Below, one piece after another: positions 47,841 through 56,393 of a stretch of 64,000 bases of DNA. The notes beneath the pieces were generated by a model that was not told the DNA's origin, did not search any database, and saw only the letters and a list, made by a program, of their open reading frames with translations. Both the position numbers and the translations under genes were made by a program. Source of the DNA: an uncultured Methanomassiliicoccales archaeon. Lineage in GTDB: Archaea > Thermoplasmatota > Thermoplasmata > Methanomassiliicoccales > Methanomethylophilaceae. The stretch's first letter is position 1. Each line of letters begins with the position of its first letter. The stretch is from positions 124,001-188,000 of the forward strand of contig CASEZY010000001.1 in assembly GCA_949292635.1 (NCBI GenBank), read 5' to 3'.

Positions 47841-48485
47841 TCAGTCGTTGAGCTCCTCTTCGTGGATTATGCGTATGCAGTCCGCCGGGACCTGGTCGCA
47901 AAGGAAGACGGTCTTCCCCGCCCTGCCGATGTCGTATCCCTCGTCGAAGCAGCGGTCCACGTCGATGGCGAGGATCACCGGCTGCTCAAGACGCACGGAA
48001 CCGGCGTTGTAGGCGTCCTGGTATGTGAGGGACAGGTGCACCTTGGCCCTGTCGGAGGGCATCAGGCCCACCTCCAGGATGATGTCCGCCTCATCCTCGG
48101 ACGCAGGGTAGTACAATTCGTCGGGTATGTTGTCGGTGGGGAGCTTCAGGTCCACGTCGATGGTGTGCCCGTAGGTGGCACGGATGCTGTCCCCGGAGAT
48201 CTGGTATCTGCCCTTGGGGTCTGTCTCCACCAGCGCTTCCACGTGATGGGGCCTGAGCCAGTGCATCCTGGGGTTGTGCTCCTTGATCGCCGAGATCAGG
48301 TCCCGGGTGCGCACGAATCCCCTGTCGTTCATGGGGAGGTCGTACTTCCCGTGACGGAGGATGCCGGCCATCTGTCTGCCCAGCCTCTCCATCTCGTAGT
48401 CGTTCATCAGGAACCTGCCCTCCTCGCCGCAGACGGGACAGTACTCGTCGCGGAAGTATCCGTGGTCCTCGCATTCTCTCATCAT
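47841..48485 (-). CDS. kptA: RNA 2'-phosphotransferase (KptA/Tpt1)
   Basis: It removes a 2'-phosphate from RNA using NAD, as in tRNA splicing repair. The N-terminal zinc ribbon (MRECEDHGYFRDEYCPVCG) is the archaeal form. The transferase motifs are ILRHGKYDLPMNDRGFV and ISGDSIRATYGHT, then LYYPASEDEADIIL and VHLSLTYQDAYNAGSVR. The 214 residues start at one of two adjacent ATGs (48485 or 48482), after GGAGTGA. It lies between folD and marker 11. Confidence 0.92.
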   Translation of the reverse strand: MMRECEDHGYFRDEYCPVCGEEGRFLMNDYEMERLGRQMAGILRHGKYDLPMNDRGFVRTRDLISAIKEHNPRMHWLRPHHVEALVETDPKGRYQISGDSIRATYGHTIDVDLKLPTDNIPDELYYPASEDEADIILEVGLMPSDRAKVHLSLTYQDAYNAGSVRLEQPVILAIDVDRCFDEGYDIGRAGKTVFLCDQVPADCIRIIHEEELND

Positions 48486-48498
48486 TGGAATCACTCCG

Positions 48499-49374
48499 TT
48501 AGCGTGACTGCTCCTCAGCCGCCTTCACGGCGTTGGCCATGAGCATGCAGATGGTCATCGGTCCCACTCCCTTGGGGACCGGGGTTATGGCGGACACCTT
48601 GTCCTGCACGTTGTCGAAATCCACATCCCCCACCAGCCTTGAGCCCTTGGGGTGGCTGGGGTCGTCGATGCGGTTGGTGCCCACGTCGATCACCACCGCG
48701 CCCTCCTTCACCATGTCGGCGGTGATGAAACGCGGCTTGCCGATGGCGGCGATCAGTATGTCGGCGGAACGGGTGACCTCCGCCAGGTCCTTGGTGCGTG
48801 AATGTGCGACGGTGACGGTGGCATCGGCGCCCTTCTGCATCAGCAGGGCGGCCATGGGTTTGCCCACGATATTGCTCCTGCCGACGACGACGGCGTGCCT
48901 GCCGGCGGTCTCAACCCCGGAGCGCCTCAGCATCTCCATGACGCCTGCGGGGGTGGCGGGAAGGAACCCGGGTTTGCCTATCAGCATCCTGCCCACGTTC
49001 ACCGGGTGGAAGCCGTCCACGTCCTTGGACGGGTCGATGGCCTCGATGACCTTGTCCTCGTCGATGTGCTTCGGCAGAGGCAGCTGCACCAGGAAGCCGT
49101 TGATCGCCGGGTCGTTGTTCAGCTCGTCGATCTTCGCCAGCAGCACCTCCTCCGGGGTGTCCGCGGGCATGGTTATCGTGACCGAATGCATCCCCAGCTC
49201 CTCGCACTTCCTGCCCTTCATGCGCACGTACGTCTGGGAGGCGGGGTCCTCCCCCACCAGCACCACCGCCAGGCCGGGGGTGATGCCGCGGGCCTTGAGG
49301 GCGGCTATCCTCTCGCGGAGCTCGCAGTATATCTGCTCGGAGAGTTCTGTACCGGAGATGAGCCTGGATGCCAT
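48499..49374 (-). CDS. folD: Bifunctional methylene-THF dehydrogenase/cyclohydrolase FolD
   Basis: It interconverts methylene-, methenyl- and formyl-tetrahydrofolate. Signatures are [20 protein letters not shown] with the catalytic Lys, [16 protein letters not shown], the [11 protein letters not shown] turn, [16 protein letters not shown] for NADP, and [14 protein letters not shown]. At 291 residues it is complete. In this lineage, which lacks the usual tetrahydromethanopterin methyl branch, FolD probably supplies one-carbon units for biosynthesis. A TATA box (about 49395-49405) precedes it, making it the first gene of the five-gene unit. Confidence 0.95.
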
Positions 49375-49416
49375 GGCTCCCTAACCCCCTCCTTGTTTTA
49401 TAATAATTCTTGCGCG

Positions 49417-50229
49417 TCAACGAAGGCCGGACGTGGCCTCGGAGGCGGTGACCGCTCTGAAGCCGCTGTCCAACAGCCCGGCGATGACCTCGCGCACCCG
49501 ATCGGCGTTCCGTTGGATCGTTTCCTCATCCATCCTTCCGCCATCCCTGGTCTCCGCCATGTGCCAGGTGTGCGTGGCCAGGACGAATGTGCCGTCCTGC
49601 ACCGTGCTTCCCAGGTCTATGAAGTCCCCGGGGGTCCGCTTGCCCTCATGCATCGGCCACAGATATGATGTGATGGGTTTGTCGGAAGCGTCCCTGCCCT
49701 TCACCGCCGGCAGCTCCGGGAGACCGTTCTCCAGACGGTAGACATCGGTAGTGCCAGATACATACGTGTAGTATGAGGAGTCGTACATCATGCCGTACTC
49801 CCGCAGGAAGTCCAGCATCTCCTCGTCCGGGTCCATGTACGGTGCGCGGAATCCCTTGGGGGAATAGCCCGTGTCGTCCCGGATCATGCATATGCCCTTC
49901 TCCACGATGGCACGCTTCTCCCCATGACCCAGACGCACACCGGTGCGGGTGCCGTTGAAGTCCTCGTGGTCCACTCCGTGGAAGCCCAGGTCGTGCTTGG
50001 AGATGATGCTCCCCACACCTGATCTGCGAAGAGCGGTGGCCTCGCAGAAGAAGGTAGCGCGGATGCCCAGGTCGTCCAGCAGGTCCAGGAGCACCTCCGT
50101 GCCTCTGGCACATGACTCAAAACGGGGTGCGTTACCGTCTCCCCTGTCCAGGGAGACGGCGGCCGGGGAACCTTTGACCGCGTCGTTCACGTCGCGGTCC
50201 AGGTCCACCGTGAGGCACAACCACCGCAT
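49417..50229 (-). CDS. NodB-type polysaccharide deacetylase-like protein
   Basis: This carbohydrate-esterase-4-like domain has the catalytic Asp region LTVDLDRDV, the metal-binding FHGVDHEDF (H-x3-H), RAPYMDPDEEML and a late THTWHM. The 270 residues have no signal peptide, so it acts inside the cell. Typical substrates are N-acetyl sugars, but the substrate here is unknown. The ATG at 50229 overlaps the stop of AMP phosphorylase (TGATG), so it is the fourth gene of the AMP pathway operon, which is unexpected. Confidence 0.8.
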   Translation of the reverse strand: MRWLCLTVDLDRDVNDAVKGSPAAVSLDRGDGNAPRFESCARGTEVLLDLLDDLGIRATFFCEATALRRSGVGSIISKHDLGFHGVDHEDFNGTRTGVRLGHGEKRAIVEKGICMIRDDTGYSPKGFRAPYMDPDEEMLDFLREYGMMYDSSYYTYVSGTTDVYRLENGLPELPAVKGRDASDKPITSYLWPMHEGKRTPGDFIDLGSTVQDGTFVLATHTWHMAETRDGGRMDEETIQRNADRVREVIAGLLDSGFRAVTASEATSGLR

Positions 50230-51725
50230 CAGATCCCCTTCTCCAGCAACATGCCCTCGATCTGTATCGGAGCCAGGCGGATGGCCATCTCCTTGGCCCG
50301 CTGGGCCTTGGCGTCGGTGTCGCCGTGCACCCTCAGGAGCACGTCGCCCTTCTCCACCCGCTGACCCCTCTTCTTCATGATCAGTAGGCCGGCGCCCTTG
50401 TCGCTGGGCGCCCCGCAGGCCTTGGCGATGTTGACGATGGCCTTGTTGCCGATGCCGTGGACGTACCCGGACTTGGTGGACACGATATCGTAGCTGTACT
50501 TGCCGGGCTCCAGGTCGCTGGACTTGAGGTCGGGACGGCCGCCCTGGGCCACCACGATCTCCATGAACTTCTTGTGGGCGGCACCGGACTCCAGGATCTC
50601 CCTGGCCCTGTCCACCCCGTTGGGGATGCCGCCCATCTCCAGGATCATTCCGGCGCACTCGCAAGCCTTCTCTATCACGCTGGCGGGGTGCTTGTCACCC
50701 TCCAGGATGCGGATGCATTCCCTGGCCTCTAGGTTCGGACCCACCGCCTGCCCTACGGGCTGGTCGCCGTAGGTCACCGCGCATTCCACGCGCATGCCCA
50801 GCATCCTGCCCAGGGATGTGAAGTCGGCCACGTACTCCCTGGCCTTCTCCAGCGTGGGCACCTTGGTGCCCCTGCCGGTGGGGATGTCCACCACAAGATG
50901 GGTGGCGCCGATGGCCAACTTCTTGCTCATGATGGAGGCCAGCATCTGCGCCCTGGGGTTGATGCCCAGGGGGTGCTCTATCTTGATCACGATGTCGTCC
51001 ACCGGAGCGAGGTTCATGGATCCGCCCCAGGCGAACACACCGCCGACCTCCTCGGAGATGTCGCGGACCTGCTGCGCGGTCAGTTCCACGTTGCAGAAGG
51101 TCTCCACGAAGTCGGAGGTGCCGCAGGCGCTGCTGATCGCTCTGGAGGATGTCTTTGGGAGCATCAGTCCGGCGGCGGCCACGATGGACACCACTATCGG
51201 AGTGATCTTGTTCCCGGGAACTCCGCCCACACTGTGGAAGTCGAAGACCGGCTCCCTCTGGAACTGGATGCGGTCGCCGGTGTCAACCATGGCGTTGGTG
51301 AAGTGGGCTATCTCCTCCAAGTCCATGCCGTTGATGTACAGCGACGTCAGCCAGGCGGACACCTCTATCTTGGACAGCTTGGACTCCAGGATGTCGTCCA
51401 CCACCGCACAGATCTCCTCCTTGGTCAGCTTCTCGCCGTCCATCTTCTTGCGGATGTAGTTCACGGAATCCGGCTTGGGAGAGAACACCACGTTCAGCTC
51501 CTCCCCCTCGGTGATGCCGTACTTCTTCATCTGGGTCTCTGCGATCAGCACCTCTCCCTTCTTCAGGATGGTGTCCGATTTGTCCACCAGGGCAATCCAG
51601 GTCTCCTTCCCCTCGATGCGCACGCGGTCGTTCTCCCTCACGCCGACCTGCACGCAGTCGGCATCGTGGAGAATCACCGAAGGCTCGGAGAGGTCCACAT
51701 CGTATGTTCTGGCTATCAGTCTCAT
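50229..51725 (-). CDS. deoA: AMP phosphorylase
   Basis: It splits AMP and other NMPs with phosphate into base and ribose-1,5-bisphosphate. The archaeal form has an extra N-terminal domain (about 1-85) and then the thymidine-phosphorylase fold: DFHSVGGVPGNKITPIVVSI, SSRAISSACGTSDFVET, and GINPRAQMLASIMSKKLAIG. The 498 residues are typical. ATG 51725 overlaps the RuBisCO stop. Products flow to the isomerase and RuBisCO encoded next to it. Confidence 0.95.
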   Translation of the reverse strand: MRLIARTYDVDLSEPSVILHDADCVQVGVRENDRVRIEGKETWIALVDKSDTILKKGEVLIAETQMKKYGITEGEELNVVFSPKPDSVNYIRKKMDGEKLTKEEICAVVDDILESKLSKIEVSAWLTSLYINGMDLEEIAHFTNAMVDTGDRIQFQREPVFDFHSVGGVPGNKITPIVVSIVAAAGLMLPKTSSRAISSACGTSDFVETFCNVELTAQQVRDISEEVGGVFAWGGSMNLAPVDDIVIKIEHPLGINPRAQMLASIMSKKLAIGATHLVVDIPTGRGTKVPTLEKAREYVADFTSLGRMLGMRVECAVTYGDQPVGQAVGPNLEARECIRILEGDKHPASVIEKACECAGMILEMGGIPNGVDRAREILESGAAHKKFMEIVVAQGGRPDLKSSDLEPGKYSYDIVSTKSGYVHGIGNKAIVNIAKACGAPSDKGAGLLIMKKRGQRVEKGDVLLRVHGDTDAKAQRAKEMAIRLAPIQIEGMLLEKGI

Positions 51726-52954
51726 CTCATCCCCCACTTGTCAAGGGCGATCCTCAGTTCCGGATGGGTCTCCGCATACTTTGCGACGGGTATGCCCTCG
51801 AATGCGGCATCCACCGCCTGGCACATTGCCATGGCGCCCTTGCGGACACCTCCCGGATGACCGGCTACACCTCCGCCGGCCTGTATCTGCACGTTGCGGC
51901 CTGAACGCTCCACCATGGCACCGATCATCCCGGGATACACGCCTCCGGAGCACACCGGCATCACCTCCTTGAAACCGCCCATGGGGTCCAGGCAGGCGTT
52001 GAGGTTCGCCAGGTCCGCCTTGGGGTCGCCGGACATCTTGCCCACTCCCAGCGTGCCTATGTGCAGGGCGTCGCCGCCGCACATCCTCACCAGTTTCGTA
52101 ATCGGCAGCATGGAGATGCCGTGCAGCGGGTCCCTGGTCAGAGCGCCGTGCATGGTCCTGTGCACATGTATCGGAACCTTGATGGACGGGTCCTCCGCCA
52201 GCGCCTGGACGGCTGCGAATCCGCATGTTATCACATCCACCATGATCTGCTTGGCCCCCCAGGACTGGACCTTCTCCGCCAGTTCCACGATCTTGTCGCC
52301 GTTGGTGCTGACGTTGATGGCGTGGACCATCCTGTGGCCTTCCGATGCCAACCTGTCCAAAGCCTCCGCCACCGCTATGGTGCGGTCCTCGATGGGACAG
52401 AACCTCTGGTCCGTCAGTGTCTCATCGTCCTTGCTGTTGGTGAGACCTCCCGCACCCGCCTCGTAGACGTACTCCGCAGTCTCCTTCGGAGGCAGTCCGA
52501 TCTTCGGCTTCACGATGGTGCCGACCAGGGGTTTTTCCGGACGGTCCAGGATCTCCCTCAGGCCCTTGGCGCCGAACCTGGGGCCCTTGTACATCTCCAG
52601 GATGCACTTGGGGAAGGTCACGTCCTCCAGCCTCAGCTTGCCGATGGATTCCAATCCGAACAGGTTACCGGCGATCACCGAGAGTATCTGCGGGACGCCG
52701 CCCACCTCTATGCTGAAATCCTCCACCGGGAACGCTATCACGGTCCGGTCGCCTTCGATGGAGAGTACCTTCGCCCCGTAATCGTCCACGATCCTCTCCG
52801 TCGTGGTGGTGAGGTCGGTCCACGTGCCGGTGGACTGCTCCGCCGCAATGGCCGCGGCCGCCTTCTCCATCGGTAGCTCGGTGGTCACCCTGTACTCGCA
52901 TATCACGTATGCGTCCGGGTCCACCTGCTCGCCTAAGTGCATGTATGTAGCCAT
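51722..52954 (-). CDS. rbcL: Form III-like ribulose-1,5-bisphosphate carboxylase
   Basis: It converts ribulose-1,5-bisphosphate plus CO2 into two 3-phosphoglycerates. Active-site residues are kept: QSTGTW with the preceding Glu, KPK at 149-151, the carbamylated Lys with its metal ligands in NSKDDE (K175, D177, E178), the HVHRTMHG region, loop 6 GVGKMSG (K306), SGGVYP and QAGGGVAGHPGG. At 410 residues it is shorter than most form III enzymes (about 440). It sits between R15P isomerase and AMP phosphorylase, so its role is nucleotide salvage rather than a Calvin cycle. Confidence 0.93.
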   Translation of the reverse strand: MATYMHLGEQVDPDAYVICEYRVTTELPMEKAAAAIAAEQSTGTWTDLTTTTERIVDDYGAKVLSIEGDRTVIAFPVEDFSIEVGGVPQILSVIAGNLFGLESIGKLRLEDVTFPKCILEMYKGPRFGAKGLREILDRPEKPLVGTIVKPKIGLPPKETAEYVYEAGAGGLTNSKDDETLTDQRFCPIEDRTIAVAEALDRLASEGHRMVHAINVSTNGDKIVELAEKVQSWGAKQIMVDVITCGFAAVQALAEDPSIKVPIHVHRTMHGALTRDPLHGISMLPITKLVRMCGGDALHIGTLGVGKMSGDPKADLANLNACLDPMGGFKEVMPVCSGGVYPGMIGAMVERSGRNVQIQAGGGVAGHPGGVRKGAMAMCQAVDAAFEGIPVAKYAETHPELRIALDKWGMR

Positions 52955-52955
52955 C

Positions 52956-53882
52956 TCAATCCTCCATCCTGAATGCCTCTTCCCCGAGGCTCTCCACCAT
53001 CACCTGGTAGACCGAGCCGGGGGATATCATCCCGGCCTCGGTGATTATCGCGTCTATGTAAGCGGCGGGGGTGCTGTCGAACACCGGGTTGAAGATCTTC
53101 ACCTCCGGGCGCACCTCCCCGTCCTTGGCCACCTCCTCGGTGTCCCTCTCCTCGATGGTGACCATGTCACCGAACAGGGTCATGGGCGAGAACTTGTAGG
53201 TCTCCGCGCAGACGTAGAACTGCACCCTGGCCTCCTTGGCCGCCAGGGCCACCTGTGAGGTGCCCACCTTGTTTATCAGGGCACCGTGTGACGTCACGGT
53301 ATCGGCGCCGACGAACACCTTGTTGGCGTACTTCATCACCGAGCGCACGGCGCTGTCGATGATCAGGGTCACGTCGATGCCCGCCTCGGCGAGTTCGTTG
53401 ACCGTGATTATCCCCTGACGCCAGGGACGGGACTCGGTGGCGTAGACCTTGAACCTCTTGCCCTGGGCATACGCCTCCTTCAGAACGCCTACGGCGGCGC
53501 TGCTGTTGCAGTGGGTGATTATCACATCGCCGTCCTGTATCCTCTTGGCGCCGATGAGGGATATCTGCCTCACCGCCTCCTCCGAGCGGGTGATGAACCT
53601 CTGTGCGTTGGATTCCACCAACGCCAGCATCGATGCCAGGTCCGGCTGGTCCTTCACCCCCCTCACCACCGCGTGAACGCCGTTCCACAGGGACACGGCG
53701 GTGGGACGGGAGTCCAAGAGCGTCCTCTTCGCTGCATCCAGCTCCGCGAGGAACGATGCTTCGTCTTCACCATGATAGGACTGTGCCAAGTCCAGAAGTG
53801 CGGAGGCGCCCGCCCGGGCGATCCTTCCCGCTCCCCTAATCTCCATGCTCCTGATGGCCTCTGCGGTGGATGCGACGTCCAT
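52956..53882 (-). CDS. Ribose-1,5-bisphosphate isomerase
   Basis: It turns ribose-1,5-bisphosphate into ribulose-1,5-bisphosphate for RuBisCO. It belongs to the eIF2B-alpha-like family: IRGAGRIARAGASALLDLA, VIITHCNSSAAVGVLKEA, YATESRPWRQG, and VFVGADTVTSHGALINKVGTSQVAL (in pieces). The 308 residues are normal for the archaeal enzyme. It is the first gene of the operon. A TATA box at about 53903-53911 lies 22-29 bases before the ATG. Confidence 0.94.
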   Translation of the reverse strand: MDVASTAEAIRSMEIRGAGRIARAGASALLDLAQSYHGEDEASFLAELDAAKRTLLDSRPTAVSLWNGVHAVVRGVKDQPDLASMLALVESNAQRFITRSEEAVRQISLIGAKRIQDGDVIITHCNSSAAVGVLKEAYAQGKRFKVYATESRPWRQGIITVNELAEAGIDVTLIIDSAVRSVMKYANKVFVGADTVTSHGALINKVGTSQVALAAKEARVQFYVCAETYKFSPMTLFGDMVTIEERDTEEVAKDGEVRPEVKIFNPVFDSTPAAYIDAIITEAGMISPGSVYQVMVESLGEEAFRMED

Positions 53883-53902
53883 GACCGTGAATCGTTCTTC
53901 GG

Positions 53903-53911
53903 ATTATATAA
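53903..53911 (-). promoter_or_regulatory. TATA box of the AMP pathway operon, overlapping a stop codon
   Basis: TTATATAAT on the reverse strand lies 22-29 bases before the isomerase ATG and contains the TAA stop of the upstream RNase III-like gene. Transcription would begin at or next to the ATG, giving a leaderless message separate from the RNase gene. Confidence 0.6.
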
Positions 53912-54818
53912 CAGGGCGAGGGATGACGGCCATCGCCGCCTCGGACGCCCGCTCGTAGCCGTGACATGCCTGCAATGCACCGAGCAAGGCCTTGAAGGAT
54001 TCCGACACCACCCGGTCCGATCCTTCAGTCAGTATCAGGGACCGTGCCCTTGGCCCGAGATGGGAGGAGGACATCACATCCTGTCTGTACAGCGTCATAC
54101 GACCTTCGTCGAGATTGGTGGAACGGAACACCGCCAGGGAGGCTGTGAGCTCCAGCACGGAGTCTCCGAGAACGGCGAGCCTTCCCCTCTCCCCCCTGCA
54201 TTCCGCCGACGGGTCCGCCAGGGCGATGCGCATCCGCTCCTGACAATCCGCAGATATGTCGGAGGTGAACACCGATGGCAGCGAATACAGGACACCGGGA
54301 TCCTCAGCACCATCCATGTCCGCTTCGGGAAGCGCTCCCGGAGAAAGATCCAGCATGTCACATGCCACGGCGTACGCGCGATCGTATCCGAAGACCTCCA
54401 GCACGGCACCGCACAGCGCCTCCGCCACATCCGCACGCATGTGGGAGATGCCGGCGGCGTTCATGTTCGCCAGGTTGGGACCGCTGATGCGGATCACAGT
54501 CCCTCCCGAGTACGAGGCGAGGATGTCCGCCAGGTGATCGTTCTCCACCAATTCCTCCTTCCTCCGGTTCATGGACTCGGTGTCCATGCCCTCGCGGTAC
54601 AACACGTCGCAGACCGCGTTCTTCAGAAGGGAATCCCCCAGGAACTCCAGGCGCTGATAGTCCTCGAATGCCCTGCCGCGCTGCCTCATCTCGGAGGCGT
54701 AGCTGGGGTGCGTCACCGCCTCAACGAAAGGTGCCAGCATGTCATGCGTGGGCACCCTGATGCGGAATGGCGGCCTTGCCAGGAATTGTCTCAGCTCGCG
54801 GTCCGGGGCATCCTCCAT
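53904..54818 (-). CDS. Protein with two tandem RNase III domains
   Basis: RNase III cuts double-stranded RNA as a dimer of one-domain chains. This 304-residue protein has a first domain at about 30-155 with AVTHPSY, the signature DYQRLEFLGDSLL (E58, D62) and MRADVAEALCGAV (D130, E133), so all four metal ligands are present. A second copy at about 205-300 keeps RLAVLGDSVLELTASLAVF and SESFKALLGAL. There A215 replaces Glu, E273 replaces Asp and K276 replaces Glu, so its site looks dead. There is no double-stranded-RNA-binding domain. It resembles a single-chain pseudo-dimer. ATG 54818 follows AGGGGA. Confidence 0.8.
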   Translation of the reverse strand: MEDAPDRELRQFLARPPFRIRVPTHDMLAPFVEAVTHPSYASEMRQRGRAFEDYQRLEFLGDSLLKNAVCDVLYREGMDTESMNRRKEELVENDHLADILASYSGGTVIRISGPNLANMNAAGISHMRADVAEALCGAVLEVFGYDRAYAVACDMLDLSPGALPEADMDGAEDPGVLYSLPSVFTSDISADCQERMRIALADPSAECRGERGRLAVLGDSVLELTASLAVFRSTNLDEGRMTLYRQDVMSSSHLGPRARSLILTEGSDRVVSESFKALLGALQACHGYERASEAAMAVIPRPVI

Positions 54819-54890
54819 GGATGGCAATCCCCTGCCCTCGTTAAATCGCTTCCGCGATACCGCTTAATATCCGCGTACGGATAATCGCGC

Positions 54891-56393
54891 ATGGGACGGA
54901 GAGTCAGATTCAGAGGCGTCGTGCGCACCAGCAAGAGGCTGGAGAGCGACATCCTCGAGAGGTCGAAGAACCTGTGGACGGATCCGGAGATCCTCAGGCC
55001 CAAATGCGCCGGTGACTGCCGCAAGTGCCACTTCGACAAGACCTTCAAGCACATCGCCAAGCTCGACAAGTACAAGAGCAGCGCGGAGGTGCTGGAGAAG
55101 ATGGCCTCCAGGGGGTCGGACGACATCCTGAAGGCGTACGCCGGCACGGTGTCGCTGTACGCCAACGGCAGCGTCCCCTACACCGCCACCGCCAAGATCG
55201 CGGGGGAGGATGTGCTCTACGTCCCCAGAGGCGCCGTGGGCAACGACAAGCTCATCGGCTGCCAGCATTACAACGACCCCAAGCTCCGTCTGTTCCTCTA
55301 CAACGCCTTCGCCAAGAAGAAGGGACTGAACCTCTACTCCTTCGGCGACGACCTGGTCTGCTCCAATCACAACAACATGCCGGAGGACTACATCTACGAC
55401 ACCTTCTGGGAGACCCCGTACCAATTCCCGGAGGACGGGCTGGACTGCGGCCACTCGTCCGAGTCCGCCCTGGTGATAAGGGTGAAGTCGGCGGACACCG
55501 AGATCCGCATCTGCAAGAGATGTGCCAGGAAGGACGTGTCCACCCTGCAGTACCTGATATCCAGGATGATCTCCCTGAACCCCCTGGATGACTTCGAGGT
55601 CAGGGTGGAGCACAACTACGGCTCGGGCAAGCAGATGGAGACGGAGCCTGTGCCCCCGGAGACCGTGAAGGAGTACTCCCTGGGCAAGCTGAACGATTCG
55701 TCGCTGCTGAACAGCGTCCTTCGCTCCAAGCTCGGGGACCTGAGGAGCAGCGGCACCTCGGCATACATCGTGGGCACCGAGAACTACGGCTCAGACCTGG
55801 ACCGCTTCTTGGGCGACCTGAAGGGAGAGGACATCGAGCTGAGGGCGCTGTCCGTGTACCTGCCGGATGCCTGCGAATCCATCGTGGTGCAGACTCCGAG
55901 GACATCTGAGGTCCTGTCCTGCATCTGGGAGGATTCCTATGCGGAGATCCTCAAGGCCTTCACCTCCGAGGAGACCGCCCAGGCCATGGGTGACGTGTCC
56001 AAGAAGAACCCCCTGTCTGTGCTCAAGGACGCGGAGAGGATGGAGATCTCCAAGGATGTGGTCAAGGCACTGCCGGCGTTCAAGAGGCTCGGTCCAGTGG
56101 GGAAGCTGGCGGACGGTTACGTAAAAGCTGCCAAGGCCGGAGGGTTCCCCCTGCTCAGGAGCGAGCTGGAGAAGAACCCGCCCAGGGAGTATCGTGCGAG
56201 GGCGATGGCCAAGGCCTTCGCCATAGCCGTCGGGGATGCCCCGGACACGGTGAAGACCACCGCGGAGGAAGCGGATCTGGCACAGTTCCTGGTGCCTTTC
56301 GTGAAGAACGTGATGGAGGCCGACGCCGAGAACTACAAGGACAGGATGAACACCCTGCTCACCGCCACCGGCTGCGGCGAATCCGTCAACTGA
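54891..56393 (+). CDS. Large cysteine-containing protein, unknown function
   Basis: The 500-residue soluble protein has an N-terminal CAGDCRKCHFDK motif (C-x3-C-x2-C, about 39-46), a Cys-His in IGCQHYND, another in DLVCSNHNNM, and a central pair in LDCGHSSES and ICKRCARKD. These could bind zinc or an iron-sulfur cluster. The C-terminal 250 residues are helical and rich in Lys and Glu. I do not recognise it. Its TATA box (GCTTAATATC, about 54862-54871) precedes ATG 54891 by 20-29 bases, and it is divergent from the RNase III-like gene. Confidence 0.7.
   Translation: MGRRVRFRGVVRTSKRLESDILERSKNLWTDPEILRPKCAGDCRKCHFDKTFKHIAKLDKYKSSAEVLEKMASRGSDDILKAYAGTVSLYANGSVPYTATAKIAGEDVLYVPRGAVGNDKLIGCQHYNDPKLRLFLYNAFAKKKGLNLYSFGDDLVCSNHNNMPEDYIYDTFWETPYQFPEDGLDCGHSSESALVIRVKSADTEIRICKRCARKDVSTLQYLISRMISLNPLDDFEVRVEHNYGSGKQMETEPVPPETVKEYSLGKLNDSSLLNSVLRSKLGDLRSSGTSAYIVGTENYGSDLDRFLGDLKGEDIELRALSVYLPDACESIVVQTPRTSEVLSCIWEDSYAEILKAFTSEETAQAMGDVSKKNPLSVLKDAERMEISKDVVKALPAFKRLGPVGKLADGYVKAAKAGGFPLLRSELEKNPPREYRARAMAKAFAIAVGDAPDTVKTTAEEADLAQFLVPFVKNVMEADAENYKDRMNTLLTATGCGESVN

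Follow-up and report, generated by a model that had tools for sequence, protein, structure and literature searches.

A tandem archaeal RNase III with one complete metal site, a candidate natural nickase of double-stranded RNA

In RNase III dimers, one strand is cut by each domain. According to reviews, chains that combine two RNase III domains are typical of eukaryotes (PMC8708148, PMC4571572), and RNase III itself is missing from archaea or very rarely found there (PMC8708148, PMC5303251, PMC4571572). The trypanosome editing endonucleases, which pair an active RNase III subunit with a dead one, are thought to nick RNA (PMC9508840), and artificial heterodimers of Escherichia coli RNase III, built from one good and one dead subunit, are cited in the same paper (Conrad 2002; Meng and Nicholson 2008, cited in PMC9508840). 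Several E. coli substitutions also help in reading altered active sites: the rnc70 protein (E117K) retains double-stranded RNA (dsRNA) binding and has lost cleavage (PMC8708148, PMC3621894), F42M is tolerated, and E38A is weakly active in vitro when magnesium is in excess (PMC8708148). Among open-access papers we found no description of a prokaryotic tandem RNase III, the known analogues being eukaryotic.

The DNA analyzed here, which we call the window, is a 64,000-nucleotide stretch (positions 124,001 to 188,000 of contig CASEZY010000001.1) from an uncultured member of the Methanomethylophilaceae, a gut-associated family. On the minus strand of the window lies a gene (53904..54818) that runs from an ATG at 54818 to a stop codon at 53906-53904 and encodes 304 amino acids. 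An alternative TTG start is found at 54827, three codons 5' of the ATG; we favor the ATG because the Met of a sister protein, described below, aligns there. A sequence-only reading of this DNA had proposed that the 304-residue chain holds two RNase III domains and no dsRNA-binding domain, and profile searches agree on both points. Pfam detected RNase III twice in the whole chain (PF14622, 92 bits in two stretches; PF00636, 69 bits in two stretches), and neither Pfam nor NCBIfam searches returned any further domain, including a dsRNA-binding domain. Searched singly, the first half (D1; 54345..54809, minus strand) scored 55.2 and 41.6 bits and the second half (D2; 53907..54251, minus strand) 42.9 and 32.4 bits, in each case above the curated Pfam cut-offs of 35 and 27, so that the second half is recognized as RNase III on its own. 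The two are joined by a linker of residues about 159-189 (54252..54344, minus strand). Against TIGR02191, the equivalog of bacterial RNase III class I, the protein scored 91.6 bits, below the cut-off of 166.25. It is acidic (pI 4.8-5.2), as are its single-domain relatives to the same degree, and a search of the source genome found no second RNase III gene elsewhere, leaving the tandem gene as the sole RNase III.

Residue alignment bore out what had been claimed for the catalytic positions of both halves. Numbered from the ATG, and with all codons on the minus strand, D1 has all four metal ligands: E58 (54645..54647; E. coli E41, A. aeolicus E40), D62 (54633..54635; E. coli D45), D130 (54429..54431; E. 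coli D114) and E133 (54420..54422; E. coli E117). At least one domain of the chain thus carries a complete E, D, D, E metal site. D2 retains only D219 (54162..54164); A215 (54174..54176) replaces the first ligand Glu, E273 (54000..54002) the third ligand Asp, and K276 (53991..53993) the fourth ligand Glu, the last being the same change as in rnc70. The ligands are therefore not complete in both dimer partners, as two cuts would require. The letters at all eight sites are identical in the sister genome (E/D/D/E in D1, A/D/E/K in D2). Across 39 aligned single-domain relatives from the family, the positions of E40, D44 and E110 do not vary, and 37 of the 39 keep D107. At the hydrophobic position of E. 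coli F42, D1 has F and D2 has V or M; at that of E. coli E38, D1 has Q and D2 has G or A, with E in 38 of the 39 family singles. Some single-domain RNase IIIs of the family have themselves exchanged the third ligand Asp for Gly or Ser (L085 in G259, L082 in G313), and because this ligand is lost, homodimers of that type may be weak or dead. The G259 protein (genus g7) is among the singles closest to D2.

The sister protein is encoded by a metagenome-assembled genome (MAG) of Candidatus Methanomethylophilaceae (contig CALULN010000003.1), where the same fusion is found with its frame intact and 52% identity overall. Within the genus, two of six genomes carry the tandem and four a single domain. 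Family-wide, 65 of 102 genomes have an RNase III match and only 2 have the tandem; no other match spanned both halves in 147 genomes of the order or in a sample of 390 from the phylum, and viral contigs contained no relatives. The earlier statement on the scarcity of the enzyme in archaea is therefore only partly right and needs qualifying for this family. When 400 Thermoplasmata genomes were searched, 81 contained an RNase III domain, as did many members of a different Thermoplasmatota family (f48), at odds with the rarity stated in the reviews cited above.

In most of the relatives examined, a single-domain RNase III gene occupies the same locus, upstream of genes for AMP salvage. Downstream of the tandem gene, and also on the minus strand, are genes for ribose-1,5-bisphosphate (R15P) isomerase (52956..53882; TIGR00511 above cut-off), separated from the RNase III stop codon by 21 bp, a type III-like RuBisCO large chain (51722..52954; PF00016/PF02788, with TIGR03326 best but below its cut-off), and AMP phosphorylase (50229..51737; TIGR03327 above cut-off). 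The single-domain genes at this locus are flanked by the same three genes and by a homologue of the window's plus-strand gene at 54891-56393. This last encodes a conserved 500-amino-acid protein, and it lies beside the gene for RNase III in the majority of the relatives examined. The protein has closely spaced cysteines near its start and matches no Pfam or NCBIfam profile. RNase III lies directly before the R15P isomerase, RuBisCO and AMP phosphorylase genes in at least five genera (window 47841-54818, loci L070-L088), and the genes for FolD and the RNA 2'-phosphotransferase KptA usually come next. The position ahead of AMP-salvage genes suggests, without proving, a tie to RNA turnover, and a coupling of dsRNA breakdown to nucleotide salvage is possible.

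A single-domain gene sits at this locus in most relatives examined, and position thus shows that the tandem arose in place. D1 retains the N-terminal FLA.PP motif of the family and D2 the EG.MT motif. In a phylogenetic tree, D1 and D2 each formed one clade across both genomes (100/100), on very long stem branches of 1.65 and 2.35 changes per column for the two halves, and because of these branches function may have shifted. The best tree placed D1 and D2 apart; a joint D1+D2 clade was not rejected (p-AU 0.38), and neither was a placement of D2 with sequences outside the family, so that the tree is compatible with D2 being a copy either of D1 or of another RNase III. At four loci where relatives have long gaps beside their single-domain genes, no second RNase III open reading frame was present. 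Most likely the tandem was made by local duplication and fusion, with D2 as the copy, which is the most economical reading rather than a proven one. The genomic evidence points to an origin separate from that of Drosha and Dicer.

We estimated dN/dS between the two tandem genomes at 0.38 for D1 (bootstrap 0.24-0.59), 0.30 for D2 (bootstrap 0.00-0.50) and about 0.9 for the fast-evolving linker, the last from few codons. Adjoining genes gave about 0.04-0.23, so the tandem RNase III evolves faster than its surroundings. A value near 0.3 indicates purifying selection, and D2 is on this basis constrained, not decaying.

AlphaFold2 returned very confident models of both the window protein (pLDDT 90.5, pTM 0.89) and the sister protein (pLDDT 92.3, pTM 0.91), with D2 covered by only the two tandem sequences in the underlying alignments. 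Numbered from the TTG, D1 was modeled as helices over residues 7-158 with pLDDT mostly above 90, and the linker fell below 50 at residues 170-182. In Foldseek searches, the best PDB matches of both models were Drosha, Dicer and plant DCL chains, aligned across both RNase III domains over more than 300 columns with TM-scores on the query of up to 0.70; chains with a single RNase III domain reached about 0.4. Because confident models best match Drosha and Dicer over both domains, an intramolecular dimer is supported. The structure prediction of the monomer that had been proposed as a check thus shows the halves matching the two-domain pair, and the idea of an internal pseudo-dimer with one cutting site is structurally well supported by these predictions. 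We regard pairing of D1 with D2 within one chain as strongly predicted, bearing in mind that these are monomer models, with which pairing from chain to chain is also compatible.

Taken together, we put a probability of roughly 65% on the reading that this protein is a natural, Drosha-like pseudo-dimer with one site, in which D2 is kept as a dead partner and which nicks dsRNA; cleavage, nicking and substrate are all things we infer. A single-domain RNase III at the Methanomethylophilaceae locus would have become a tandem in place, in the lineage of the two genomes, and D2 would have lost its catalytic metal site while being retained as a dimer partner. D1 and D2 would pack as the Drosha/Dicer RNase III pair does, forming one dsRNA groove with a single working site in D1. 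Given one working site, and given that each RNase III domain cuts one strand, a nick would be expected: the protein should cut one strand of the bound duplex, on a defined side, and D2 should hold the other strand intact. Counting against this reading are the Q at the E38 position of D1, the long stem branches, and the acidity of a chain devoid of a dsRNA-binding domain, the last tempered by equally acidic single-domain relatives. We hold more tentatively, at a little short of even odds, the fuller proposal that a prokaryotic RNase III independently evolved a dimer of the Dicer/Drosha type and, with one half disabled, became a dedicated dsRNA nickase with a fixed choice of strand.

Other readings of the same data have to be weighed. 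The whole protein might be a pseudoenzyme, binding structured RNA but leaving it uncut, for which plant chloroplast RNC1, with its two dead RNase III domains, is a known precedent; the loss of the E38 equivalent in D1 (now Q) and of three ligands in D2 fits such a protein, as do the long stem branches of both halves. We nevertheless find this unlikely, because D1 has kept all four ligands and the motifs RLEFLGDS and AD..EALCGAV in both genomes even though 44% of its residues differ between them. It is less likely still that D1 pairs with the D1 of a second chain to give an ordinary two-site RNase III, with D2 as an added domain for RNA binding or regulation. If the single-domain relatives function as other RNase IIIs do, they must indeed form homodimers, but both monomer models place D1 and D2 in the arrangement of the Drosha/Dicer pair with high pTM.

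That the gene is an assembly artifact or a decaying, functionless fusion is very improbable. Both halves do evolve fast relative to adjoining genes, as decay would predict; the GC content of the gene, however, equals that of its neighbors, the upper bootstrap limit for D2 stays at 0.50, and an independent genome carries the fusion too, its frame undisturbed, which rules out misassembly. As for cellular roles, we set aside a link to RNA interference, having found no Piwi or Argonaute match in the six genomes of the genus in a search that included a positive control. A search for Cas9, which had no such control, gave no match and carries no information on a Cas9 link. A long and well-conserved processing stem flanks the 23S rRNA genes of the family (L106-L112). 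Since this stem looks the same whether or not a genome has RNase III, a specific role in 23S rRNA processing was rejected.

The two-domain architecture known from eukaryotes has here a recent origin in an archaeon whose sister species still carry single-domain relatives at the same locus. How a homodimer turns into an internal pseudo-dimer can thereby be tested directly. As a compact, naturally occurring protein, the tandem is also a candidate RNA nickase.

How does this protein compare with described RNase IIIs? Among its closest counterparts are the single-domain enzymes of the Methanomethylophilaceae, which match the same Pfam profiles, are about 160-175 amino acids long, lack a dsRNA-binding domain and occupy the same locus; they have one domain per chain and nearly always a full set of ligands, whereas the tandem has two domains and one site. 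Bacterial RNase III class I combines one catalytic domain with a C-terminal dsRNA-binding domain, which the archaeal tandem lacks. Mini-III RNase resembles it in having an RNase III domain unaccompanied by a dsRNA-binding domain, but is a one-domain homodimer, and the tandem had no match to the Mini-III family in Pfam or NCBIfam.

Pairs in which one or both domains are dead can be compared as well. The E. coli heterodimers share with the tandem the combination of a good and a dead subunit, and the lysine of rnc70 stands at the ligand position of K276 in D2; these, however, are laboratory constructs, whereas the archaeal protein is natural and covalently fused. The trypanosome proteins KREN1-3 and KREPB6-8 likewise join an active to a dead RNase III, giving one site and a cut in one strand (PMC9508840), but they are separate proteins with zinc fingers that belong to an editing complex, not a single chain. 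RNC1 of plant chloroplasts is a single chain with two RNase III domains and has lost catalysis (PMC8708148, PMC11241334); both of its domains are dead and it serves in group II intron splicing, whereas the archaeal D1 retains its ligands. Drosha and Dicer, finally, resemble the tandem in that a pair of RNase III domains within the same chain forms an intramolecular dimer, an arrangement that for the archaeal protein is predicted only. In the eukaryotic enzymes both domains are active and are accompanied by helicase, PAZ, platform or dsRNA-binding parts, whereas the archaeal D2 has lost its ligands and the chain carries none of these parts. The archaeal tandem is therefore not a member of this class; it works like the Drosha/Dicer RNase III pair with one half switched off.
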